This document shows positions 6,889 through 64,000 of a stretch of DNA of 64,000 nucleotides, in pieces. The position numbers were made by a program, and so were the translations under genes. Where the stretch lies: NCBI GenBank assembly GCA_963556145.1, contig OY744464.1, positions 8,017,703 through 8,081,702 of the forward strand, written 5' to 3'. Position 1 is the first letter of the stretch. Each line of letters opens with the position of its first letter. Under the pieces are notes generated by a model. The model was not told where the DNA came from. It ran no database searches and saw only the letters and a program-made list of their open reading frames with translations. Source of the stretch: Hygrocybe punicea (Eukaryota; Basidiomycota; Agaricomycetes; Agaricales; Hygrophoraceae).

Positions 6889-7062
6889 GATTGGGGGTAG
6901 AAATCTACATTGGTGGCTAGTCCACCACTAGCCTAGCCCAACTTATTTAGAAAACAGTATATATAATTCAAACTGTTTGGGGTTAGAAATCTACATCAAT
7001 GGCTAGTCCACAGTGTCCGCCACTAGCCTACCCCAACTTATTTAGAAAACAGTATATATAAT
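6889..7062 (+). repeat. Two-copy tandem duplication
   Basis: Two copies of about 80-90 bp (6889-6967 and 6972-7062) both begin with a GGGGTAGAAATCTACAT-like word and both end in CAACTTATTTAGAAAACAG followed by TATATATAAT. The second copy has an extra short insertion near its middle. Confidence 0.75.
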
Positions 7063-47411: not shown

Positions 47412-48334
47412 ATGTTAACAGATCTCACCGAACTTCAAAATAGTCTTGCAACCCTTGAACAGTTGCTGGATGAAGAATCCCAGCCCGAAACAAATGAGTT
47501 GGAGGCCGACTTGGCAAGTTTACAAATGAACATGGCAAGCTTACAGTCGACCTTTGTAGGGGTTACATTTCCGGTGGAGTGTTGTTTCAGAATTGTCCGG
47601 TGATTGCTCTCGCTCATTTTCTCATTATCATAGACATGTGAAGATGAAGGTCAAGCACGATGGTTTGACAGTCCTGTTGGTAGCTTGATCTTGTTTCAGA
47701 TTTTCCATGCTCAAACTGAAACCTTCAGCCATCAACACCAGAAGATGTATCTGTTGCATCTGGGTGCAACTCCCCTAGTCAACGCCCTGCAGTTCCATCG
47801 CAGTCAACACCACCTGTCCCCATTTATGTTTCATCTGACGAGGCTTCACAGTCAATCCCTGAGAGTGAAGATGGGACTGGGTCCAACAGTTCATATGAAC
47901 CTGCACCAGCTGTACCAGCTGCAGAAGGGAATGACCCACCTGATCAGGAGGTTGTAGGTCCATCAGTTCTTGGTCAGTCATCCACTCTGAAAACCTCAAT
48001 CATCTTATCACAATGTGTTCATTATTCAGCATTGGAGTTGCTACATCCCCTTAAATGGGGTGGAGCTCTGCTTCAGTTGTCGACACTCAAAGATCGCACA
48101 TGGCTAGATGGGTTACTGCTGGACTTCTGGTTGTCTCACCTTTGGCTTGAGCTCGGATGCCCGGTGGGACGATACATTTCATTCAACTGGTGGATGCTGG
48201 AAACCATAACGGATGTTGAAATTCGGCAATTCCGTGAAACCTACCACTTGCCACTGGAAGAACCTAATAATCTACTCCTCGGATCCCGCCCCGGGATCCA
48301 GGACCAGGACCAGGACCAGGACCAGGATTACTAA
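47412..48334 (+). CDS. Ulp1-like (C48) peptidase fragment, 3'-truncated
   Basis: Exons 47412-47555, 47634-47675 and 47729-48334 join in phase to 263 residues. Residues 1-48 form a short coiled coil (LQNSLATLEQLLDEE). About 60-140 is an acidic Ser/Pro linker. The end reads TWLDGLLLDFWLSHLWLEL, then VGRYISFNWWMLETI, resembling the start of Ulp1/C48 SUMO-protease domains (W-L-D-x-x-I/L-x-x-W). The catalytic His/Asp/Cys part is absent: the frame runs into GGACCA repeats at about 48298 and stops after QDQDY. The second donor (GTTGGT) is weak. Family assignment is tentative; probably a truncated gene. Confidence 0.4.
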
Positions 48335-48690
48335 GCAATTTTGGACAAGGAATTGCTTTTTTGGGAACCTACCCTGGATAAGGACAAGGATTTTGGACAA
48401 GGAATTGCCTGTTTGGGAACCTTTGGACCAGGACCAGGACCAGGACCAGGACAATGACAAGGATTTGGACCAGGACCAGGACCAGGACAAGGATTTGGAC
48501 CAGGATTTGGACCAGGACCAGGACAAGGACAAGGATTTGGACCAGGACCAGGACCAGGACAAGGACAAGGACAAGGATTTGGACCAGGACCAGGACCAGG
48601 ACAAGGACAAGGACAAGGATTTGGACCAGGACCAGGACCAGGACAAGGACAAGGACAAGGATTTGGACCAGGACCAGGACCAGGAGGGGG
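48298..48690. repeat. GGACCA/GGACAA hexamer minisatellite
   Basis: Hexamers GGACCA, GGACAA and GGATTT alternate. From about 48530 they form a 42-bp higher-order unit (GGATTT, three GGACCA, three GGACAA) repeated three times exactly. A first short block lies at 48298-48326 and a short unique stretch (48327-48423) interrupts. Since the period is a multiple of three and stops are rare, most frames on both strands stay open, giving spurious Asp-Gln, Thr-Arg, Ser-Trp, Pro-Gly and Val-Leu repeat proteins. Confidence 0.95.
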
Positions 48691-49910
48691 AACTTGGGCA
48701 AGTTTTTGAATGATGTGGGGGGATCTTTGGGGGTCATTGTGGGCAAGTCTTGAGGACATGTGGGGGATCTTTGGGGGGGTTTTTGGGCAAGCATTTGAGT
48801 CATGTGAGGGGATCTTTTGGGGGCATTGGGGGCAAGTATTTGGGACATATGGGGGGTTGTTGGGCAAGTATTTGAGTCATGTGGGGGGATCTTTGGGGGG
48901 CATTGGGGGCAAGTATTTGGGACATATGGGGGGTTGTTGGGCAAGTATTTGAGTCATGTGGGGGGATCTTTGGGGGGCATTTTGGGCAAGCATCTTAGAC
49001 AAGGAGGGGGATCTTTGGGGGACATTGTGGGCAAGTATTTGGGACATGTGAGGGGATCTTTGGGGGGCATTTGAGTCATGTGGGGGGATCTTTGGAGGGC
49101 ATTTTGGGCAAGAATTTGAGACATGTTGGGGATCTTTGGGGGACATTTTGAGGAAGCATTTGAGTCATGTGGGGGGTCTGTGGGGGGTCTGTGGGGGGCA
49201 TTGTGGGCAAGCATTTGGAACATCAAGGGGGATCTTTGGGGGACATTTGAGTCATGTGGGGGGATCTTCCAGAGGCATTTTAGGCAAGCATTTGAGATAT
49301 GTTGGGGGATCTTTGGGGGGCATTTTGGGCAAGCTTGTCAGTCATGTGGGGGGATCTTTGGGAGGCATTTGAGTGATGTGGGGGGATCTTTCAGGGGCAT
49401 TTTAGGCCAGCATTTGGGACATGTGGGGGGATCTTTGGGGAGCATTGTGGGCAAGCATTTAGGACATCAAGGGGGATCTTTGGAGGACATTTGAGTCATG
49501 TGGGGGGGATCTTTCAGGGGTATTTTGGGCAAGTATTTGCATCATGTGGAGGGATCTTTCAGGGGCATTTTGGACAAGCATTTGGAACATGTTGGGGGAT
49601 CTTTGGGGGGCATTTTGGGCAAGTATCTAAGTCATGTGGGGGGCATTGTGGGCAAGTATCTAAGTCTTGTGGGGGGCATTGTGGGTAACTTTTTAGGACA
49701 TGTGGGGGGATCTTTCAGGGGCATTTTGGGCAAGCATTTGGGACATATAGGGGGATCTTTCAGGGGCATTTTGGGCAAGCATTTGAGATATGTTGGGGGA
49801 TCTTTGGAGGACATTTTGGGCAAGCCTTTGTGATATGAAGGGTGATCATTGGGGGGCATTTTAGTCATGTGGAGGTTCCTGGGCAAGTCCTTTAGAGAAA
49901 CTTTCCAGAT
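48691..49910 (+). repeat. Guanine-rich minisatellite
   Basis: About 18 variant copies of a 45-75-bp unit: CATTTGAGTCATG, TGGGGGGATCTTTGGGGGGC, ATTTTGGGCAAG. Copy length varies through loss of the middle words. Runs of five to eight G occur in almost every unit. Open frames reading it (Gly/His/Phe rich on plus, Pro/Lys/His rich on minus) are not credible genes. Confidence 0.93.
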
Positions 49911-50333
49911 CAAGAGGAGATTCCTCCTCATACATTCTGAATAACAATTCTAAAAAAAAAAAAAAAAAAAATCCAAAAAAAAATCAGCACACAGGTTTAA
50001 TACTACTTTACTACCAAGGAACTTAATCAATGTCAATAGCTCCTGCATTTGAACTTGGTCAATTCACATTGCTGTACTTTATAAAATTCTTGTGTTTAAT
50101 GTCAGATAAATAGCACATGTTTATCCTTAAAACTATATAGCAGATGAACATATAATTCATAACAATACCAAACATCTTTTAAATGTACACAAAGCAATTA
50201 TAATTTATATTTCAATGTAGTTTGAACACTTGACAATACAGTTATTATATTATTACAACACTGATACAAGTAAAGCAATATAAAGGTTGTCAAATTCACA
50301 ACTCAAATAATATATGACTGGTGACAGTTATTA
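49911..50333. other. AT-rich spacer with A-tract
   Basis: A run of about 20 A followed by a second run near 49951-49981, then AT-rich sequence. No gene. The A-tract could be a retroposition tail, but no element is recognisable upstream. Confidence 0.4.
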
Positions 50334-50691: not shown

Positions 50692-53600
50692 ATGCCTTCC
50701 TGTACCAATTGTAATTTGGAGTTTCCTACTATGGGACAAAGAGATTATCACCATAGACATTGCAAGGGAGAAGTCCAAATAACTTATATTAATGGGGTTT
50801 TCACATTGCAGGCAGGAGTTGATGGGAGATTTATATGTCAATGTAGTCATCCTAAATGTCCCAAGCCTTTTACAACCATTAGAGGTCTTCAAAAGCATGT
50901 TAAAAAGGTTCAGCTGCCATGGATGCCTAGAGTTGGGGTGGACAATCCAGTCAATGATCAGGCTGAAGTCCAGGCTGAAGTTCAACCTGAAGTTCATACT
51001 GATGAGCCCATTATCCAGGTTGATTTTATCATCTTCAGATTCAATATTAATCTTAAACCTGACATTTTTTAGAGTCAGCCACAATCACCTGATATCACCA
51101 ATGTAGATGAGGATTTTATTGATGATGCAGCTGCAAATCCAGCCATCATTTCAGACTCATCACAAGTTAATAATCAAATCATTCCCAACCAACACCACAA
51201 AGATGATATCAGCACTTCAGAGGTGGGTTATTTCATATGTCTTCCAAATACTACATTTGATGTTGAAGTCAAAAGATTGCAACACATCCCTATCTGGATA
51301 CAATAGGGTTCTCTGTCAATACAGTCCTCCATTCACTACTTTGTGACTGGTGTGGTTATGCTGTTTTGCCCAAACATGTAGAAAGTCATTTGGCAGGTGA
51401 AAATCATAAACCAGGCAAACTCAAGATCATCAGCAAGACACTTGGAGAAGTGGTGGAGGAGATGGAGGTGCTTGAATGTTTTCCCAATCCTCCCAGGACA
51501 CTTCCCATGGATCCTGCACCACATGCTTTTCAAGGCTTGGAGATTGCAGAGGGTTTTTACTGTTTGTTTTGCTCTCATGCATCCACCTCCAAGGAATATA
51601 TGAGGAAGCATCATAGCAAGCATCATCACACAGAACCAAAGCCACTCACATGGGCTACATGCTCTGTTCAACAAATCAATCCACGTGATCACGTGGCATG
51701 TCGATGGTTTCGAGTTCAACGGCAAGATGCTCAGCCCATCCATGTCACCCCCACCATCATTACCGATCTTCGAAAAGAGATGCTCAAAGAATCAGAACAG
51801 TCAGGGCAAAGAGGAGTTAGAGATCCACGCACTGTTAGCCCTTGGCTCTTGAGCACCAAGTGGCATGAGCATATCGAAGGATTCGAGACGACCGAACTTC
51901 GGAACTTGATATCGTTTCCAGGCAAAGAAGAACTGCAAGGTCTTCCAAAGCTGGTGGAGTTATATTTTCAGGATGCCACAGACCTATTACCATCAACATC
52001 TGAGCTCACACTGCAGAAGCTCAACACCTCTGACCCTGCCAAAACGTAAGTACTGTTCCCAACCAAGTATAGATCAATACTGATAACAGACATGTAATTC
52101 AGTGGGATTAGCAACACTCCCTTGCACAAGCATCAACTCGACGCTACATTAGGTCAATACTGCAATCCAGTCATCCGTTTATTGGCAATGCTCCTACGTC
52201 CAAAGGCCCAGTACCAGATCCCACTTACCGTTGAATTGGAAGAAGCATTGTTGTTTCTAAAGGAGGCTCTAGAGGAAGACAGGGATGAGCCCATGGTTGC
52301 AAGTAGGCTTCATGCCGTGTTCAAGGCATTGTGGATGCAGAGCTGGCTGCCTAAGGCCGATAACCCAATCCCTTGCCCAACCGTTCGAGCTTTAGCTCTC
52401 TTGACATTGCAACAGGACCGCAGCTTCACAGCTCCAATAGGAGTAACTTGCTTCATATCTAAACTGGAGCGAGCAGTCCGTCTTTTTTGTTTGACCGAGA
52501 TACATGAACTCTCCATGACACCAGAGGATGAAGAGGATTCCTGTAACACCATGCAGTACTGGTTCATTGAAAAAAACAACACTCCATTCAATTCTCTTCG
52601 CTCTCTCCAGCACCGCGCTTCCAGCATTGCTTTCTGCACCAGAAGCATGCCTCGGATTTACTGGACAGACCGCATCACCTGGAGGTCCATGTTATATCGA
52701 GGTACAGCTGTGGATTTGGACCAGGTGGGGGAGATGTTCAGACACTTGGAAGATGCCATAGTTGATGTGTGGGAGAAGAAAGTTCTTCTGGGCCTGGCAC
52801 TGAGAGTCAACACCAAGGGGATCAGGGAGGATCTTGCAAACACAGATGTTGGCTATTCGTTCATCACAGATCCTCGTAATGAGACCTTCAAGGACCGGGA
52901 CCAGCTACTAACCGCTATCATATGTAATCCTGCAATATGTGGGCAGTTCCTGAAGGTTGATCGGGTCAGTGGTAAAATCGTGTGGAACAAAACAGCATTA
53001 CGCACATGGCTCAGCAACTATGCCAGACTGCACGAACTCCTCCTCCTCCGATGCGAGACACTTTGCGGAGCCCCAGAGCGGGGGACTGAAATGACAGCCA
53101 TGCAAAAAGAGAACACTGACACACGGACTGACAAGAATCTCGCCATTCTTGACAAACATCTGGCTCTTCTCCGTCTATATAACAAATCCAGTGCACAGAT
53201 GGGCCATGACAAGCTCATACCACATGCAGTCGATGCCTTTGCATCCGACATCATCATTCAAGATCTCGCACTCGCTCGTCCATTCGCAGAGATTGCAGTG
53301 CACATCTGCATGCCTGAGAGGTTGGATATCAAGAAGCTGTACCAGGTGCATCTCTTTGTCAATGATGGCAAACTTTTCAACACGAGCAACATGTCAAACG
53401 TGATGAAGGAGTTCACGGAGCCCATCATTGGTGTGGGTCTGACCGTCAGCGACTGGAGACACATCAGCATCACCTGGAAGCGTAAACTGTGCAGCGCCGC
53501 CATGGAACTGTATGAAGAAGGTGGTTTGGAAGATACCGTAGATGTCCTCCAAGCAGGTCACAACCGGCACACAGAGGAACGGATTTATGGCATCAGTCGA

Positions 53601-54644
53601 GATGCACTGGCAGGTGCAGCAGAGGATGTTCTTCCTCTCTTTATGCAGGCCAGCACCAAGTGGCAGATAGTGCACAAAGTCGTTCCAGGTGAGCTTTCAA
53701 TGTATATGTCACGGTTCAATCTTAATAATCCAAACACAACAGGAGGCCTAATGTTGCCATACACCGAGGCACGCATGGAAGCATTCGACAATCTCGTTGC
53801 CAGAGGTGTCATAAAGGTGGAGCGATCAAGAAATAGCATGCCCAACACCACAGTTGACCTCGATGCCATTGCGGACCGAGTGGTGGATCGACTCATGCCT
53901 TGCCTCACAGATCTGATCAGAGATGTCGTTACCTCTGCCCTAAGCAATACTCCTACCACCACCGAGGTCCCTAATGTTGACATGGACATGATGACCATTG
54001 AACCTGACTTCAATGATGTCCCTGAGGTTGTCATGGCCCAGCCACCAAGAATGCAGCCAGCCACCGGTCCAGCCAGGCCAATATCAACAATGGCAATGGC
54101 AAAGGTGGCCACCACCCATCCCTTCCAGGACGAGTTTGAGGGAGCCAAGAGACGAAAGGTGGCAGCATTGGCGGCGAAGAGTGGACTGGCTGATCGGCTC
54201 TTGAAGGGCTTGAAATCATTTCAAGGGTTATGCTCATTCTGCAGGGTCTTTGGAGGTTCAAGTCACCCCTGGCATAACATGCTCAACTGTCCCACAATGC
54301 TTGGAATCATGTCCAAGGATCAGTACATCAACTACCAAAGCTGCATTCAGTATGACACCAAGATTCACAGGACAATGACATGCTTCTTCTGCCATGTGCC
54401 TCAGCTCAACTATCGACTCCATGCCAATTTCACTGGCTCCGGTGAAGACTGCGAGTGGCAAGAATGCGTGGCACCAGTAGCATTGGCCATTTTCATGAGC
54501 ACCGAGCTGCGAGAAGCAGCCAAAGCGCATTTCGGATGTCAGTGGGACAACAAAAAAGAGTTTGCAAAGTGGTTGAATTCAAAGCCGACACAAGGGCATA
54601 CCAGTAGAACCATAGAGCTGTTTTTGTGGTGCTGTGAACATTAA
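50692..54644 (+). CDS. Zinc-finger, tyrosine-recombinase-like protein
   Basis: Exons 50692-51018, 51073-51222, 51276-52045 and 52103-54644 join in phase to 1262 residues with no stop. N-terminal fingers: CTNCNLEF...H...C, CQCSHPKCPKPF...H; an OrsD (DUF3505)-like LLCDWCGYAVLPKHVESHL; FYCLFCSHAS...HH. The centre reads as a tyrosine recombinase: ARPFAE (R808), NDGKLF (K839), SDWRHISITW (R868), then AGHNRHTEERIYGI with H902 and Y911 nine residues apart, the normal spacing to the nucleophile. The usual box II His is a Ser. The C-terminus has LCSFCRVFGGSSHPWHNMLN and TCFFCHVPQ...C fingers. A role in DNA cutting and joining is inferred. Related repeats flank it; it lies about 9 kb from the telomere. 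Confidence 0.75.
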
Positions 54645-54805: not shown

Positions 54806-57800
54806 GTCACACAGTTGGTGAAATGACCAAGTCAAGTCACATGATGAGTTGGTGAGATCACCAAGTCAAGTGACAAGTCACGGTCACGATCGATCACGAT
54901 TTGTGAATTGAGCTACACAGAGTAGAAGAGACGCATGCTATGATCCTGCCAAGATTCAAAGTCAGCAACAAACGATAACGAGGGTGATACCGGTCACAGA
55001 GTCGGTGAAATGACCGAGTCAGGTCACGTGGCCATGTCACGAATGGTATAAATTGGAACGATGAGTCATGATCACTCTTGGTCTTGAACCACCATGATCT
55101 CACAGCTACACCGGTGAGATTGGAACGTTGCGGTCGATATAGCCCACAGAGTGATTTTTTGATTTTTTTAACCGTTCCATTCATCCACACTGGCCATGTC
55201 ATTCACCATGATGGTCAATACGATCTAGATGACAGACTACTCGGATCCTATGACCATTTCCATCGCGTTTCTTTCCCATGATATATTCGCGTTCGCATTG
55301 CCTCGCAGTCGTTCCCAGCCCAGCAGAGAACACTCGTTAGCACCTTTAGGCATCTCGCCTCGTTGTCTCGCAGGGGAACGTCAATTTACTGCCAGTAGCA
55401 CACAGCAAGAAATACTGGTTAGCATCGGATGAAACACCGCACCGCAGAAGCAAGATAACCATGATATACTGCACCCAACTCATCCTCCGAACAAGCAGCA
55501 GACTGGCATAACAAAACAAACGACCAGTTGGTAAAATCACCGACTCGAGTGACATGTCACGTATCACGGTCACACAGTTGGTGAAATGACCAAGTCAAGT
55601 CACATGATGAGTTGGTGAGATCACCAAGTCAAGTGACATGTCACGGTCACGATCGATCACGATTTGTGAATTGAGCTACACAGAGTAGAAGAGACGCATG
55701 CTATGATCCTGCCAAGATTCAAAGTCAGCAACAAACGATAACGAGGGTGATACCGGTCACAGAGTCGGTGAAATGACCGAGTCAGGTCACGTGGCCATGT
55801 CACGAATGGTATAAATTGGAACGATGAGTCATGATCACTCTTGGTCTTGAACCACCATGATCTCACAGCTACACCGGTGAGATTGGAACGTTGCGGTCGA
55901 TATAGCCCACAGAGTGATTTTTTGATTTTTTTAACCGTTCCATTCATCCACACTGGCCATGTCATTCACCATGATGGTCAATACGATCTAGATGACAGAC
56001 TACTCGGATCCTATGACCATTTCCATCGCGTTTCTTTCCCATGATATATTCGCGTTCGCATTGCCTCGCAGTCGTTCCCAGCCCAGCAGAGAACACTCGT
56101 TAGCACCTTTAGGCATCTCGCCTCGTTGTCTCGCAGGGGAACGTCAATTTACTGCCAGTAGCACACAGCAAGAAATACTGGTTAGCATCGGATGAAACAC
56201 CGCACCGCAGAAGCAAGATAACCATGATATACTGCACCCAACTCATCCTCCGAACAAGCAGCAGACTGGCATAACAAAACAAACGACCAGTTGGTAAAAT
56301 CACCGACTCGAGTGACATGTCACGTATCACGGTCACACAGTTGGTGAAATGACCAAGTCAAGTCACATGATGAGTTGGTGAGATCACCAAGTCAAGTGAC
56401 ATGTCACGGTCACGATCGATCACGATTTGTGAATTGAGCTACACAGAGTAGAAGAGACGCATGCTATGATCCTGCCAAGATTCAAAGTCAGCAACAAACG
56501 ATAACGAGGGTGATACCGGTCACAGAGTCGGTGAAATGACCGAGTCAGGTCACGTGGCCATGTCACGAATGGTATAAATTGGAACGATGAGTCATGATCA
56601 CTCTTGGTCTTGAACCACCATGATCTCACAGCTACACCGGTGAGATTGGAACGTTGCGGTCGATATAGCCCACAGAGTGATTTTTTGATTTTTTTAACCG
56701 TTCCATTCATCCACACTGGCCATGTCATTCACCATGATGGTCAATACGATCTAGATGACAGACTACTCGGATCCTATGACCATTTCCATCGCGTTTCTTT
56801 CCCATGATATATTCGCGTTCGCATTGCCTCGCAGTCGTTCCCAGCCCAGCAGAGAACACTCGTTAGCACCTTTAGGCATCTCGCCTCGTTGTCTCGCAGG
56901 GGAACGTCAATTTACTGCCAGTAGCACACAGCAAGAAATACTGGTTAGCATCGGATGAAACACCGCACCGCAGAAGCAAGATAACCATGATATACTGCAC
57001 CCAACTCATCCTCCGAACAAGCAGCAGACTGGCATAACAAAACAAACGACCAGTTGGTAAAATCACCGACTCGAGTGACATGTCACGTATCACGGTCACA
57101 CAGTTGGTGAAATGACCAAGTCAAGTCACATGATGAGTTGGTGAGATCACCAAGTCAAGTGACATGTCACGGTCACGATCGATCACGATTTGTGAATTGA
57201 GCTACACAGAGTAGAAGAGACGCATGCTATGATCCTGCCAAGATTCAAAGTCAGCAACAAACGATAACGAGGGTGATACCGGTCACAGAGTCGGTGAAAT
57301 GACCGAGTCAGGTCACGTGGCCATGTCACGAATGGTATAAATTGGAACGATGAGTCATGATCACTCTTGGTCTTGAACCACCATGATCTCACAGCTACAC
57401 CGGTGAGATTGGAACGTTGCGGTCGATATAGCCCACAGAGTGATTTTTTGATTTTTTTAACCGTTCCATTCATCCACACTGGCCATGTCATTCACCATGA
57501 TGGTCAATACGATCTAGATGACAGACTACTCGGATCCTATGACCATTTCCATCGCGTTTCTTTCCCATGATATATTCGCGTTCGCATTGCCTCGCAGTCG
57601 TTCCCAGCCCAGCAGAGAACACTCGTTAGCACCTTTAGGCATCTCGCCTCGTTGTCTCGCAGGGGAACGTCAATTTACTGCCAGTAGCACACAGCAAGAA
57701 ATACTGGTTAGCATCGGATGAAACACCGCACCGCAGAAGCAAGATAACCATGATATACTGCACCCAACTCATCCTCCGAACAAGCAGCAGACTGGCATAA

Positions 57801-59119
57801 CAAAACAAACGACCAGTTGGTAAAATCACCGACTCGAGTGACATGTCACGTATCACGGTCACACAGTTGGTGAAATGACCAAGTCAAGTCACATGATGAG
57901 TTGGTGAGATCACCAAGTCAAGTGACATGTCACGGTCACGATCGATCACGATTTGTGAATTGAGCTACACAGAGTAGAAGAGACGCATGCTATGATCCTG
58001 CCAAGATTCAAAGTCAGCAACAAACGATAACGAGGGTGATACCGGTCACAGAGTCGGTGAAATGACCGAGTCAGGTCACGTGGCCATGTCACGAATGGTA
58101 TAAATTGGAACGATGAGTCATGATCACTCTTGGTCTTGAACCACCATGATCTCACAGCTACACCGGTGAGATTGGAACGTTGCGGTCGATATAGCCCACA
58201 GAGTGATTTTTTGATTTTTTTAACCGTTCCATTCATCCACACTGGCCATGTCATTCACCATGATGGTCAATACGATCTAGATGACAGACTACTCGGATCC
58301 TATGACCATTTCCATCGCGTTTCTTTCCCATGATATATTCGCGTTCGCATTGCCTCGCAGTCGTTCCCAGCCCAGCAGAGAACACTCGTTAGCACCTTTA
58401 GGCATCTCGCCTCGTTGTCTCGCAGGGGAACGTCAATTTACTGCCAGTAGCACACAGCAAGAAATACTGGTTAGCATCGGATGAAACACCGCACCGCAGA
58501 AGCAAGATAACCATGATATACTGCACCCAACTCATCCTCCGAACAAGCAGCAGACTGGCATAACAAAACAAACGACCAGTTGGTAAAATCACCGACTCGA
58601 GTGACATGTCACGTATCACGGTCACACAGTTGGTGAAATGACCAAGTCAAGTCACATGATGAGTTGGTGAGATCACCAAGTCAAGTGACATGTCACGGTC
58701 ACGATCGATCACGATTTGTGAATTGAGCTACACAGAGTAGAAGAGACGCATGCTATGATCCTGCCAAGATTCAAAGTCAGCAACAAACGATAACGAGGGT
58801 GATACCGGTCACAGAGTCGGTGAAATGACCGAGTCAGGTCACGTGGCCATGTCACGAATGGTATAAATTGGAACGATGAGTCATGATCACTCTTGGTCTT
58901 GAACCACCATGATCTCACAGCTACACCGGTGAGATTGGAACGTTGCGGTCGATATAGCCCACAGAGTGATTTTTTGATTTTTTTAACCGTTCCATTCATC
59001 CACACTGGCCATGTCATTCACCATGATGGTCAATACGATCTAGATGACAGACTACTCGGATCCTATGACCATTTCCATCGCGTTTCTTTCCCATGATATA
59101 TTCGCGTTCGCATTGCCTC
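54806..59119 (+). repeat. 763-bp subtelomeric satellite, 5.65 copies
   Basis: Unit starts recur at exact 763-bp steps (54806, 55569, 56332, 57095, 57858, 58621). Units after the first look identical; the first has a few changes (for example GTGACAAGTCAC for GTGACATGTCAC). The last is cut at unit position about 499. Each unit has GGTGAAATGACC, GTTGGTGAGATCACC, GTCACGTGGCCATGTCAC and a TATA-like TATAAATTGG. Each also contains a minus-strand 102-codon frame and smaller plus-strand frames, which recur only because the unit does. It begins right after the recombinase-like gene and stops at an interstitial telomere repeat. Confidence 0.97.
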
Positions 59120-59130
59120 TTAGGGTTAGG
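59120..59130 (+). repeat. Interstitial telomere-type sequence
   Basis: TTAGGGTTAGG sits exactly where the 763-bp satellite is cut off and the AT-rich block starts. The strand and polarity are the same as those of the terminal repeat at 63863. It is only two units long, so chance cannot be excluded, but its position at a sharp junction is suggestive. Confidence 0.7.
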
Positions 59131-59376
59131 TTTATAAGGGAGGAAAAGAAGGATTCAATAGTTATCTTTCCCAAGGGTAGATCACAGTTGAGGCTGAGGA
59201 TATATATAAAATCCACAAGACTTGTAATAAGGCAGACAGGAATAAGGGAGAGATTTATAAGGGAGGAAAAGAAGGATTCAATAGTTATCTTTCCCAAGGG
59301 TAGATCACAGTTGAGGCTGAGGATATATATAAAATCCACAAGACTTGTAATAAGGCAGACAGGAATAAGGGAGAGG
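59131..59376 (+). repeat. Two-copy 123-bp tandem duplication
   Basis: 59131-59253 and 59254-59376 are identical or nearly so (TTTATAAGGGAGGAAAAGAA start, AATAAGGGAGAG end). The period is 41 codons, so an open frame through it (to 59529) repeats a 41-residue basic segment with IREEKKDSIVIFPKGRSQ. Coding status is doubtful: the frame has no start of its own after the satellite. Confidence 0.9.
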
Positions 59377-59529
59377 GGAGTAGAAGCCTTTGAAACACAA
59401 AATAAACTGCAGATAAAGAAGATCAAGTCACTCACCCCAAGAGGGGAAGATTTGGTGGCAATCCAAATTTCTGCAGTGGTGCTTCTTCAGTTCCCAGTGT
59501 CTGAGTGGGTGGATGAGTTAAGAGAGTAA

Positions 59530-62027
59530 AGTCTGTTCCAACAGGGCTCTTCTGAGCTGGCTTATATATGATTCTGGGGCTGGCTTTGAATATAAATGGA
59601 TAATCAAGTTATTTTATTTATTAAAGCTTATCAGCCAATCAGAATATTGATGTAATAATTAGAACTCCTTTAAAATATTCAGATATTGCTCTAGCCAATG
59701 GCAGAACACACTCACTAGGCAACAGGCACATAAGGGTTTGATGTAACCATGGGAGTACAAGGTATCAGTGTCCTGATTGGGTACAAGGTAACAATGACCT
59801 ATTTTTGTACCAGGTAGCACTGTCCTAGTTGAGTCCTTAGTAACAGGTAAATGACAGTTTGATGGAATCTATTTTTAAATACAGGGTGTTGCCCTAAAGT
59901 AGAGTGAAAGGGTCCTGTGCTGAGATTTAATTCTTATCAGTCAGGAGTATGCTGATTTCTCATCACTGGAAGTCTTCTAAATAGAAGGATAGGATTCTTT
60001 GTCAGTAGACAAGGTTTTAGTTTCAAATAAATCCCTAAATGGTGGTTGTTTGAATTAGATGATATAATTAGAATTACTAGAAGAGGTAGTTTATAATACA
60101 TTCATCTATATATGGTTGAGTGGGATTTAAAAGAAGTGAGATTGGTTGACTTGGTAAGTGTGTAGGAATCAATTCATTTGTGAAAGAGTCTTTCAAGTAA
60201 ATTGTGCAAGACATCTTGTTCAGCATTCAGTATTGAACCTATTGTTCAACATCCATAAGGACTGTTTTTCATAAAAATCCTTACTGGAATTGGATCCAGT
60301 TAAGGTGAAGAATAAGTGGTTGTACTTTTCTAATTTTCTGATAGAAATAAACTATCTCAGTAATTGTATCCTTTGAAATGAACCAAATTCTGTACTTTGA
60401 ATTAAATGAGCCTTAGAGATGGTACAACTGTTAGCCTTTTAATCAAGGCATAAGATGACATTTAAAATCAATCTTATTCAGTGTATTATTCCAAGTAAGG
60501 GTTTCACTCATCCAAAGTCAAATTATCAAGATTTTAGTAGTAGTATTCCAGTCAGTGTTTTCAAAAAAGTTACACAGATTCTATCTTTATTAGTAAACAG
60601 GAGAAATTTGAAACAGAGCTGCATACAATGTTTACTTTTAAATGAATACAAGTCATGGATTGAGTATCTTGTTGTGAAAGGTGTGTGGGTGTTTTGAATG
60701 TTGTGAATATTATAAAGGGTGAGTTCCAAGCTAGAATGTAATACATCCAGTATACAGTTTCTAGACTTTTGTAATCTGTTTAAATCCAGTTTGTAAAACA
60801 GAAGTGCTCAGGTTTCCTTGGTACCAAAGTATTCTCAGAAAGATATAGGAGAAATCTTCTATACTTATAATGGTGTCTTTGCTAGAGATCCAAGTATTTC
60901 AATGAATGATTTCTTTTGATTCATCATCAGCCTACTGATGAATTCTGATCTAGCCAGTAGTTTACTTGGCAGGATTCACCTTGGCAATCTGTCCTGGTAG
61001 TCAGACTCAATGGAGCTTTCAATACAGGCACTCTTTTAAAAGATAATACCAGAGGATGAATCCAGGGATAGTCAGTAACTATAAGGAAGTTATTTTAGAA
61101 CCTTTATCTTTCAAACAGAACAAATTAATATTGTTGTAGAGTATCTGTTCTCTTCATCATATCTATTAGATATAATTTTGTAATGGTTACAAAGTCTTCA
61201 GTATCTTTATCTGCCTTCTTTGGTTTTGTGTTTCAAAAGCTTCTTTTTGTTGTTAATAAAGCATTTATATTTGTGATCACAGTATTTTCATAATGAGTTG
61301 AGTGGTTATATTAGAGGTTAGAAGTTAGGAGTTAGGAGTTAGTTGGTTTTATGGTTTTAGTTTAGGAGGTATATGTATTCTCCTTTGTTAGTGAGTATGT
61401 GTTTATTTTGGAGGGGAGTTAGTTAGGATTAGTAACAATTTGTATAAACTTTTCATTAGAAGAATAGTATATAATGAGTCTAGATGTTATCAGCAGCTTG
61501 TGAAAGGTGTAACCTTATGAGTATTTGACACAAAAGAAAAAGCAAGGCCATGCCACTGCTAGAATTAATAGAGATTGTCTCTTCAAGCACCATTCAAGGC
61601 TCACTAGCTGGCCAAAAGATTTTTATAGTGAATAACACTCCTTTTGCTTCATTCTATAAGAATCAAATACAGTGCTACTAGATTTCAGTATAGATTGTAT
61701 TCTTCTGATTATATAGTTTAAATAAATTCTTTTTAATGGTATTGTTTCCAATGGTTTTTTAATTGTAATCAAATTTAATAGTTTTGTCAAGTATAACACT
61801 TTTTATATGACAAGAGAATATTTTTTGTGCTTTTATTAGATATATCATAGTTCTTAATTAGAACTCCTTGTTTCCCAAAATATAATATATATAGAGCTTT
61901 ATTTGTTTCTGAGGTATTTGTTGTATTTTTAAGCATGGTATTTTTTATATTCCCAATATGGCATTCCTTTGTTCCAGATATATCCATCCTTTGTATCCAG
62001 ATATATCCATCCTTTGTACTCAAATTC
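59530..62027. other. AT-rich spacer, no supported gene
   Basis: About 2.5 kb of AT-rich sequence with only short frames (for example 60455-60697 plus and 62023-61787 minus). Degenerate telomere-like words (TTAGGAGTTAGGAGTTAG) occur near 61318-61345, and a GATATATCCATCCTTTGTA word is duplicated at about 61977-62016. No RNA gene recognised. Confidence 0.45.
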
Positions 62028-62035
62028 TATATAAG
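62028..62035 (+). promoter_or_regulatory. TATA box of the orphan gene at 62098
   Basis: TATATAAG lies 63-70 bp upstream of the ATG at 62098, a typical core-promoter distance in fungi. Confidence 0.5.
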
Positions 62036-62097
62036 CAGGGCCATATTCATCATTTTAAAACCATTCCCCACCTCACTCCAGTCCTTGTTCTTTAACT

Positions 62098-62759
62098 ATG
62101 GCTGCTTGGCCTCTTCCTAACTTTGATATAAAGCCTATTAATCCTCATATCATCTTATCCTCCACTTATATTCACACATCCTCTTCAGAGTTATCTGATA
62201 TTCTCAATGCTTTTGCTTCTGATTATGCTTTTGCTATTGTGAAGAAATTTTCTTTGCTTTATTTGCTAGATCTTCTGAACAGGTATTTTGTTATTTTAAA
62301 CTCTTTTCCCTTTTGCTTATTCTAAAATGTTTTGATTTTAGAATGTTTACAGAAAAGCTAGCATGGGAGCATATAACTGCTCATAGAGATATTGCAGCTC
62401 TTGCTTTTCTACAGGATTTGGATAATCCTGGAAGTACTGAGATTAACTCTCTGCTTATAAGCTATGACTTAGCTTTAGAAGAGGCCAGACATGGTTACAG
62501 TATCTGTTATACCATCCTTCAAGATAGGTTTTATCCCTTGAAGCTTCAGAAAGACTGGTCCATCATCATGAAGAAAGCTCAATGGGGGGCTTTTGGTAGA
62601 ACTTTGATTTGGGATTTGGATGGTGGAGGTTCTGGTTTGAAGTATAGTGGTTTAACAGGTGTGGGTGATTTACAGGAGATGGGAGAGGGATGGGAGGCTT
62701 TGAAAGGCTTGGAAGTCAAGGAAAATAGATATGCTATGAGAGTTAGAGAGGTTCTTTAG
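62098..62759 (+). CDS. Orphan protein of the telomere-proximal block, 200 aa
   Basis: Exon 62098-62282 starts MAAWPLPNFDIKPINPHIIL. The intron 62283-62341 (GTATTT...TTTTAG, 59 nt) joins in phase to exon 62342-62759, which ends at TAG. The second exon is mostly helical (WEHITAHRDIAALAFLQDLD, then SYDLALEEARHGYSICYTI) and ends in a Gly-rich then charged tail (DLDGGGSGLKYSGLTGVG, KENRYAMRVREVL). A TATA box upstream, clean splice sites and an undamaged frame support a working gene despite the AT-rich surroundings. It converges on the exonuclease gene. No family recognised. Confidence 0.6.
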
Positions 62760-62935
62760 ATATCATTACACAGTCATTATTGATTTTTTTGGAAGACATT
62801 TTGTTGAGATTTCTTTTTTTGACAGAAGTGAATTATTAGATTGGATTTATGATTGCAGTATCAAGTAATGAGTTCAAGCATGAGATAAATTTGGAGGAGG
62901 ATAGTAATTGTGAGTTGTATTGTTCAACTATATTT
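62760..62935. other. Convergent 3' spacer
   Basis: 176 bp between the ends of the orphan gene and the exonuclease gene. No hairpin or repeat seen. Confidence 0.4.
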
Positions 62936-63856
62936 TTATACATACATGTTGAAGATTTGATTTTTTAGAGTAGGTTGATAAGAGTTTAGGTATTCATTTA
63001 AATTCTTGGGTAGATCAAGCTTTTCTGTGAAGGCTGCTAAGAGTCTTATACATGCATTTGCATCAGCATTTGCTTGATGTAACACTTTTGAATCAATGGG
63101 ATAACATAAAAGATCTTTTAAAGCAGTTGATAAATCATGTTTCTGAATTTTGTAGTGAGCTTGATATAAATCAATTGTTTTAATAGGTGGGAGGATTTTA
63201 CCATGTGTTTTTAAGGAGTTTCTTAGAATTGGAATGTCAAATTTATTAATATTAAAGCCAACAATGATTTTCTTTTTAAACATGTTAATAATATGATCAG
63301 CAATCATATTCAAAGTGTAAGGAGAGTTATCTATGTGTTCTTGAGTTATTTTATTGATTTCATAGGCTTTGCTTTTATAATCAATTTGATAATTGTTATT
63401 GGGTTTCAAATATATGAGAGTTTCTTCATGAGATTTTGCAAAAATGGGGTTTGGTTTTAAACAGAGATTACTTAAACAAATTGATAAAATATTTGAGTGT
63501 AGAGAGAGACCATCTGTTTCTATATCAAAGAATATTAGATCATTTTGTAAATCATAGAGTTGTTTAGAAATAAAGTCATGTATTGAAATTTGGAGAATGT
63601 TTCTAGGGTGCTTTGATATGTGTTTTGTTGAAAGATTCAAATGAAAATATGATGGTTTTTCTTTTAGTAGACTCATATTTAGAGTTAGTTGAATTGCTTG
63701 AGAATTTATGTCTTTAAGATGTTGTTTCATCTCATTTTTGAAATTTTCAATTAAAATTTGACAGTTGTGAGAAAAATGAGTTGAGTCTATGATTTGTGGT
63801 TGGTATTTATGTTTGGTTTTTCTTTCATTATGAAATATATGAGTATCTTGAATCAT
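62936..63856 (-). CDS. DEDDh 3'-5' exonuclease, telomere-adjacent
   Basis: An intact intronless frame of 306 residues starts at ATG 63856 and reads away from the chromosome end. The DnaQ/DEDDh set is complete: LIFFDIETDGL (D111, E113), IIVGFNINKFDIPIL (D207) and HQANADA (H260, D265), with YEINKIT before Exo II and TIDLYQ after it. Such enzymes remove nucleotides from DNA or RNA 3' ends. Residues 1-100 are Lys/His/Asn-rich without a known domain. The ATG is only about seven bases from the terminal repeats, and an in-frame TAA lies just upstream, so the 5' UTR and promoter would have to be telomeric sequence. Codon use is strongly AT-biased. Organellar or plasmid ancestry is possible. Confidence 0.85.
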   Translation of the reverse strand: MIQDTHIFHNERKTKHKYQPQIIDSTHFSHNCQILIENFKNEMKQHLKDINSQAIQLTLNMSLLKEKPSYFHLNLSTKHISKHPRNILQISIHDFISKQLYDLQNDLIFFDIETDGLSLHSNILSICLSNLCLKPNPIFAKSHEETLIYLKPNNNYQIDYKSKAYEINKITQEHIDNSPYTLNMIADHIINMFKKKIIVGFNINKFDIPILRNSLKTHGKILPPIKTIDLYQAHYKIQKHDLSTALKDLLCYPIDSKVLHQANADANACIRLLAAFTEKLDLPKNLNEYLNSYQPTLKNQIFNMYV

Positions 63857-63862
63857 TTTGAT

Positions 63863-64000
63863 TTAGTTAGGGTTAGGTTAGTTAGGTTAGGTTAGTTAGG
63901 TTAGGTTAGGTTAGTTAGGTTAGTTAGGTTAGTTAGTTAGGTTAGTTAGGTTAGTTAGGTTAGTTAGGTTAGTTAGGTTAGTTAGGTTAGGTTAGGTTAG
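63863..64000 (+). repeat. Terminal telomere-type repeat, TTAGG/TTAG
   Basis: About 138 bp, uninterrupted to the window end, made of TTAGG and TTAG units in mixed order, most often as TTAGTTAGG, with a single TTAGGG near the inner edge (63867-63872). Orientation is G-rich strand 5'->3' towards the right, correct for a right chromosome end. It differs from the regular TTAGGG of most basidiomycetes. Confidence 0.9.

Follow-up and report, generated by a model that had tools for sequence, protein, structure and literature searches.

A probable telomere-capped remnant of a Penelope-like element carrying a DEDDh exonuclease gene at a contig end of Hygrocybe punicea

The AT-rich block and its genes

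We analyzed a window of 64,000 nucleotides of the basidiomycete Hygrocybe punicea (contig OY744464.1, positions 8,017,703 to 8,081,702), which forms the right-hand terminus of a contig (8,081,702 bases) in an assembly of 92.2 Mb and 42 contigs. The window closes with an AT-rich block that carries an exonuclease gene and is bounded by telomere sequence on both sides. This block is very probably a copy of an endonuclease-deficient Penelope-like retroelement that primed on an exposed chromosome end, is truncated at its 5′ end and is capped there by telomere repeats.

On the inner side of the block lies a 763-bp satellite array (55576..59119, no strand assigned) with sub-repeats spaced 763 bp. Its start is that of the leftmost repeat copy shown, so that the array may reach further left, and it is broken off at 59119. 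An interstitial telomere unit, TTAGGGTTAGG, is read directly after it (59120..59130, + strand). On the outer side, a terminal telomere array of mixed TTAG, TTAGG and TTAGGG units (63863..64000, + strand) contains TTAGGGTTAGG a second time, at 63867 and in the same orientation. These are the only two matches to the 11-mer in 64 kb, both at the borders of the block, and none was found in 100 shuffles. Outside the terminal array, a single telomere-type run of at least 11 nt occurs in the window, against a shuffle mean of 0.05. The GC content is 48.0% in 1-59119 and 32.6% in 59131-63862.

The 138-bp terminal array was compared with other contig ends. Twenty were examined, one of which was masked, and of the 19 readable ends three have telomere arrays (C2 left, C7 right and C34 left; 145, 151 and 147 bp). 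The similar size of the array in the window fits a true chromosome end. At the left end of C2 the same 763-bp satellite is directly capped by telomere repeats, without the block; this is how the end of the window would look if the block were absent. The interstitial unit may be a remnant of the old chromosome end, a copy of the reverse-complement telomere repeat at the 3′ terminus of the element, or both.

The longest open reading frame (ORF) of the block encodes a DEDDh 3′-5′ exonuclease of 306 aa, counted from an internal Met (62936..63856, − strand). It matches RNase_T in Pfam with an E value of 1.6e-12, a match to DNA_pol_B_exo1 being below the cut-off, and the residues D110, E112, D206, H259 and D264, invariant in 26 of 26 aligned sequences, place it in the DEDDh class. 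Its predicted model, with a predicted local distance difference test (pLDDT) score of 79, resembles DnaQ, RNase T and TREX1-like enzymes. Sequence searches of solved structures gave no match for this protein or for that of the second gene described below. A metagenome relative, P0008, is 87% identical to the exonuclease and has 38 further N-terminal residues before the first Met of the window protein. Only Ile-Lys of these is retained in the frame of the window, and the telomere follows. As judged from this alignment, the telomere cuts off the N-terminus of the exonuclease and leaves its catalytic domain complete. An original prediction, made from the letters of this DNA, had described the broken satellite, the two telomere borders in one orientation, the AT-rich block and the DEDDh exonuclease, and had placed the earlier chromosome end near 59120 with the block attached to a telomere; the described features are confirmed, and the placement is supported, with the left end of C2 as an example of an end without the block.

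That prediction also counted two apparently intact genes. This does not hold for the truncated exonuclease, but it may for the second, a predicted spliced gene of 200 aa antisense to it (62098..62759, + strand; exons 62098-62282 and 62342-62759), provided that the predicted spliceosomal intron is real (62283..62341, + strand). As read from the sequence, this intron has 59 nt, is bounded by GT...AG and keeps the frame. Pfam gave nothing above the cut-off for the gene, and with exon 2 as the query it was found nowhere else in the genome. One relative at an E value of 0.01 or better was present in the protein collection, P0147, whose identity to exon 2 is 88% over 138 aa. Its source contig is listed at 7835 bases, the same as that of P0008, so the gene is probably part of this element lineage and not a host fragment.

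Reverse transcriptase and 3′ junctions of related copies

The assembly holds four relatives of the exonuclease, at 46% identity and 25-56 kb from contig ends (C2 left, C41 left, C34 right and C7 right), whose frames are 99.8-100% identical in DNA among themselves. At all four loci a reverse transcriptase (RT) is found between the exonuclease and the contig end, whereas the block in the window has none. At C2 the RT frame is just upstream of the exonuclease, toward the contig end. At C34 an RT frame of 927 codons, ending where the C2 RT does, is directly followed by an exonuclease frame of 343. This is the largest copy read, over ~8.1 kb up to another repeat with the 5′ end not reached, and it is likewise GC-poor (37.4%). 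Searching the assembly with the C2 RT recovered the same four places only, with three pieces at C41; the pieces are 97-100% identical, except for one of 83% at C41. Thus, a new type of element without RT, which had been suggested because the block shows none, was rejected: the block lacks an RT because at the exonuclease N-terminus, before the RT is reached, the element gives way to the chromosome end.

For the C2 RT (464 residues to the stop) Pfam returned only RVT_1, below the cut-off (E 1.2e-4), and a chance match at E 0.1, and it detected no GIY-YIG endonuclease in it. This domain was present in two of 42 RT relatives scanned, both 31% identical, and near relatives are without it. When the fold of a metagenome relative was compared with solved structures, telomerases were closest, ranked above R2 and LINE-1, as for a telomerase-like RT of the Penelope branch. 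Penelope elements and telomerase RTs are described as sharing a common ancestor (PMC3846280). Based on the telomerase-like fold and the lack of a detected GIY-YIG domain, we place the RT with the endonuclease-deficient Penelope-like elements (PLEs).

Of 25 database relatives of the exonuclease, 23 are 40-95% identical to the C2 protein; one scan of IMG/VR with the C2 exonuclease found no relative. Relatives of the exonuclease and of the RT share four listed source-contig sizes, against 0.12 expected. Together with the four loci in this genome, this suggests that RT and exonuclease are a stable pair. We conclude that the exonuclease belongs to the element. As a separate observation, a 144-bp coding-like minisatellite (L036:3000-7630) lies directly upstream of the truncated C2 RT and in frame with it.

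At its start the block holds an exact tandem duplication (59131-59375; period 123 bp, 100% identity), and it therefore reads as a stub followed by a main copy. The stub (59131..59253, sense on the − strand) is either the 123-bp 3′ end of a first, head-to-tail element copy or a local duplication. The main copy (59254..63862, − strand) has its 3′ end at 59254 and lacks its 5′ part beyond 63862. Consistent with this boundary, copies at C36:385 kb and C39:5244 kb start at base 59254 of the main copy, and one at C6:826 kb starts at the corresponding 3′ end. A related family shows a comparable arrangement at C40:36 kb, with a 267-bp 3′ stub ahead of the main copy.

We compared the 3′ junctions of copies that match two 3′-end queries. 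Copies that share a flank entered the count once, and copies without a TTAGA-type end were set aside. The set excludes C36:385 kb, C39:5244 kb, C40:5730 kb (L086), the internal join of the C40 tandem, and L092 and L093, two fragments that start further inside the element. Eleven of the 19 distinct junctions have at least 4 telomere nt ahead of the TTAGA-type pentamer, where 0.74% is expected for each, a rate derived from random flanks of window 1-59119. Adding the three copies that reach the end region without TTAGA gives 11 of 22 (binomial, 2.4e-18). Units like that at 59120..59130 thus recur at the 3′ ends of related copies with other flanks, and since these flanks differ, the copies look like separate attachments.

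The 5′ end was checked for telomere repeats in the window and in the C6:826 kb copy. In the window the array begins two codons ahead of the internal Met of the exonuclease; the C6:826 kb copy terminates at TTAGTTAGGTTAG, the start of the next element. This copy is also interrupted by a 0.73-kb insertion with short inverted ends (TATAGTGATGGTA; L003:2258-2990, C6:827104-827836).

The coding strand points inward in the window copy and at all four exonuclease/RT loci. Orientation was further scored in 24 rows, hand-picked from the 3′-end matches with duplicates included and with C36:385 kb, C39:5244 kb and partial matches excluded. The 5′ end is toward the nearest contig end in 6 of 8 rows within 100 kb, in 9 of 11 within 150 kb and in 9 of 13 within 300 kb. 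By eye, the left end of C40 (L057) and the right end of C33 (L062), both of which hold 3′-end copies in unexpected orientation, seem to share sequence in the same orientation. They may therefore be a split or shared repeat, and perhaps not chromosome ends.

Origin of the block

The attachment that we consider very probable would have proceeded as follows. The satellite end would have had little telomere left, the 11 nt of telomere sequence at the join being the host's or the element's. As the junctions suggest, the 3′ end of the element RNA (UCUAA with CCUAA-type repeats) would anneal to the G-rich 3′ overhang, and the telomerase-like RT would extend the 3′ end of the chromosome. Such extension leaves the coding strand pointing inward, as is observed. 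The 123-bp stub may stem from a first attempt, and the main copy of at least 4.6 kb from a second one that joined it head to tail; the tandem structure is seen in the sequence, although the stub may instead be a local duplication. The missing 5′ portion, holding the RT and the N-terminus of the exonuclease, would either have been left uncopied or have been lost later, and telomere repeats, which are present there now, would then have been added to the open end.

Several observations weigh against this reading. The join between satellite and element is known here only from the assembly. As the RT lies outside the window, membership in the PLEs is read from relatives at 46% exonuclease identity, the fold comparison was run on a metagenome relative and not on the H. 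punicea protein, and the shared source-contig sizes are circumstantial. Eight of the 19 junctions hold fewer than 4 telomere nt, and a telomere unit is missing from the 3′ join of the nearest copies of the window's family, those at C36:385 kb and C39:5244 kb. The orientation of the copies is not uniform, with the 5′ end toward the nearest contig end in 15 of the 24 rows, and many 3′-end copies sit far inside contigs. Such internal copies could mark former ends or repaired breaks, or they could have travelled with other repeats; the C36:385 kb fragment is flanked by another repeat and may have moved together with it. The original prediction had named, as a finding that would speak against a telomere-targeted element, a widespread internal sequence unrelated to telomeres: related copies do lie far from contig ends, but several of them still have a telomere-like unit at the join.

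The alternative that survives best is subtelomeric exchange. The block would have come by break-induced replication or recombination from a subtelomere with an old copy, and a later break would account for truncation and telomere. Subtelomeres do exchange in this genome, as shown by the near-identical exonuclease frames and RT pieces at C2, C34, C7 and C41, and the 3′ end of the window has copies at 98-99% identity. However, the assembly, which may lack ends, offers no near-identical donor for the distal half of the block (the best match to the exonuclease is 46% identical, and exon 2 of the second gene finds only itself), and a telomere unit stands exactly between the satellite and the 3′ end of the element, as at other junctions. 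We regard exchange as unlikely, although it is the most credible of the alternatives.

That satellite and block were wrongly joined in the assembly is very improbable. The satellite is repetitive, which could mislead an assembler, but the telomere unit at the 3′ join of the element recurs with other flanks at other loci, the terminal array matches those of other ends in size, and the 763-bp satellite is itself subterminal at the left end of C2.

Linear plasmids carry their own protein-primed DNA polymerase and no RT; such a polymerase could have been lost from a truncated block. The AT-rich composition and the exonuclease gene would suit a plasmid or virus-like DNA captured at a broken end, but in the relatives an RT adjoins the exonuclease, copies of the 3′ end occur in many places, the second gene has a predicted spliceosomal intron, the C34 copy with its RT is GC-poor too, and the IMG/VR scan gave no relative; we give this explanation almost no weight. 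A remnant of a telomere-targeting non-long-terminal-repeat retrotransposon like MoTeR is just as hard to credit, for the reasons of RT type given below, even though the telomere-like borders in one orientation would agree with it.

Relation to known elements and the hammerhead-like motif

Coprina is a fungal group of endonuclease-deficient PLEs, and MoTeR is an element of the long interspersed nuclear element (LINE) type, with a different RT and a restriction-enzyme-like endonuclease. The fold of the metagenome relative places the RT here closest to telomerase, unlike the LINE type of MoTeR. What the element here and MoTeR of Magnaporthe/Pyricularia have in common is a fungal host and an association with telomeres; MoTeR appears in a list of telomeric retrotransposons of fungi (PMC10088271). 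The original prediction had offered MoTeRs and captured linear plasmids as precedents; the closest ones are instead endonuclease-deficient PLEs and the Terminons of rotifers. As described for the former (Athena of bdelloid rotifers and Coprina; PMC3846280), the elements here combine a telomerase-like RT with apparent attachment to chromosome ends and telomere repeats on a truncated 5′ end. They also share the lack of a detected GIY-YIG domain and may differ in the exonuclease ORF that here follows the RT. Coprina is listed as a PLE superfamily (PMC6515669). In another basidiomycete, Agaricus bisporus, PLEs are likewise reported at chromosome ends, and the excerpts of that report, in which exonuclease was not a search term, mention no accessory exonuclease (PMC7473861).

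Terminons, giant Athena-bearing elements of bdelloid rotifers, are described as carrying accessory ORFs, an exonuclease among them, as being cut at the 5′ end by telomere repeats and arranged head to tail, and as having reverse-complement telomere repeats close to a hammerhead motif at the 3′ end (PMC6431247). Each of these has a likeness here, the 3′ repeats in the 11 of 19 junctions. The differences are that the Terminon exonuclease is of the DEDDy, RNase D-like type (PMC5408684) and the present one DEDDh of the RNase_T type; that Terminons reach 40 kb, whereas the largest copy read here is ~8 kb with its 5′ end not reached; and that the hammerhead motif is directly at the 3′ end in Terminons, whereas here it is ~190 nt inside. 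A Pfam scan of five ORFs, which did not extend to the element's 5′ part, showed none of the other Terminon accessory ORFs (GDSL, Rep).

The motif (59444..59495, − strand) is a predicted hammerhead-like structure, GGGAA-CUGAAGA-(stem II)-GAAA-(stem III)-UC^UUCCC, on the sense strand ~190 nt from the 3′ end of the main copy at 59254. The descriptor, written post hoc after the sequence was seen, has a single match in the window and none in 30 shuffles; it also matched L064, L071 and L072, and not L073, L075 or L003. Between the two families 3 of 14 pairs are changed on both sides, all in stem III (five sequences only). Of 500 shuffles, 226 reach three double-changed pairs but none reaches the values for cells-paired and covariation; slid versions of the alignment have at most one double-changed pair. 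Three findings speak against the motif. Rfam gave no hammerhead match in the 3′ region of the window or in seven loci, so the motif rests on our own descriptor and on covariation between two lineages. Its fold energy is no better than that of shuffles (z 0.67; the L064 and L075 cuts are uninformative), the three-way fold lying above the minimum by 0.2 kcal/mol in the window version and by 3.3 in the other family. Finally, the base of stem II is an A-A pair, which is unusual in hammerheads. On balance we lean slightly toward a real motif.

What is known, then, is the telomere-attached endonuclease-deficient PLE; what is new, as far as our searches reach, is a DEDDh exonuclease conserved beside a PLE RT in a fungus, and the hammerhead-like motif. 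Among the literature matches listed, no report of a DEDDh exonuclease or of a fungal exonuclease in PLEs was found, which does not prove novelty. Processing of the 3′ ends of RNA or single-stranded DNA has been suggested for the rotifer DEDDy enzyme (PMC6431247), and the exonuclease here likely trims the 3′ ends of the target overhang, the complementary DNA (cDNA) or the template RNA. We tentatively propose, as a possibility of somewhat less than even standing, that this is a fungal counterpart of the Terminons: a PLE lineage that independently acquired a DEDDh exonuclease as a fixed second enzyme, together with a self-cleaving hammerhead-like RNA. The exonuclease would then make the primer ready by trimming the telomere overhang or the cDNA at its 3′ end to a form that pairs with the CUAA-type 3′ end of the template. 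If so, two independent recruitments, of DEDDh and of DEDDy enzymes, would suggest that telomere retrotransposition requires the trimming of ends. An element that seems to cap a chromosome end, lacks an endonuclease and combines its RT with a conserved 3′ exonuclease offers a simple means of finding out what an RT must be able to do in order to prime on a chromosome end. Truncated remnants, a short AT-rich tip with an exonuclease and no RT, are easily mistaken for a new class.

Some minor observations concern the surrounding repeats. In the C40 tandem (L067/L076, C40:36247-37020) the break of the 3′ stub lies at most 2 nt from where the hammerhead-like motif is predicted to cleave. On their 5′ side, both the C34 element and the C36:385 kb fragment adjoin a repeat whose two copies are 99.4% identical over 1506 bp (L094:8255-9760, L002:1-1506); it contains inverted repeats, and pieces of it recur, also near window position 6900. 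Six contig ends without a telomere array are filled by an 80-bp satellite with an inner TTAGTTAG (L044, L050, L051, L058, L059 and L060). Within the window, minisatellites with GGACCA and TGGGGGGATC-type units occupy 48425-49862, a G-rich stretch with a GC skew of 0.38 in 48001-50000. Lastly, window 51267-54644 and L036:1-2751 (C2:46500-49250) hold subtelomeric ORFs that are C2H2-like and helicase-associated in appearance (candidate domains), and which we presume to be reminiscent of telomere-linked RecQ genes.

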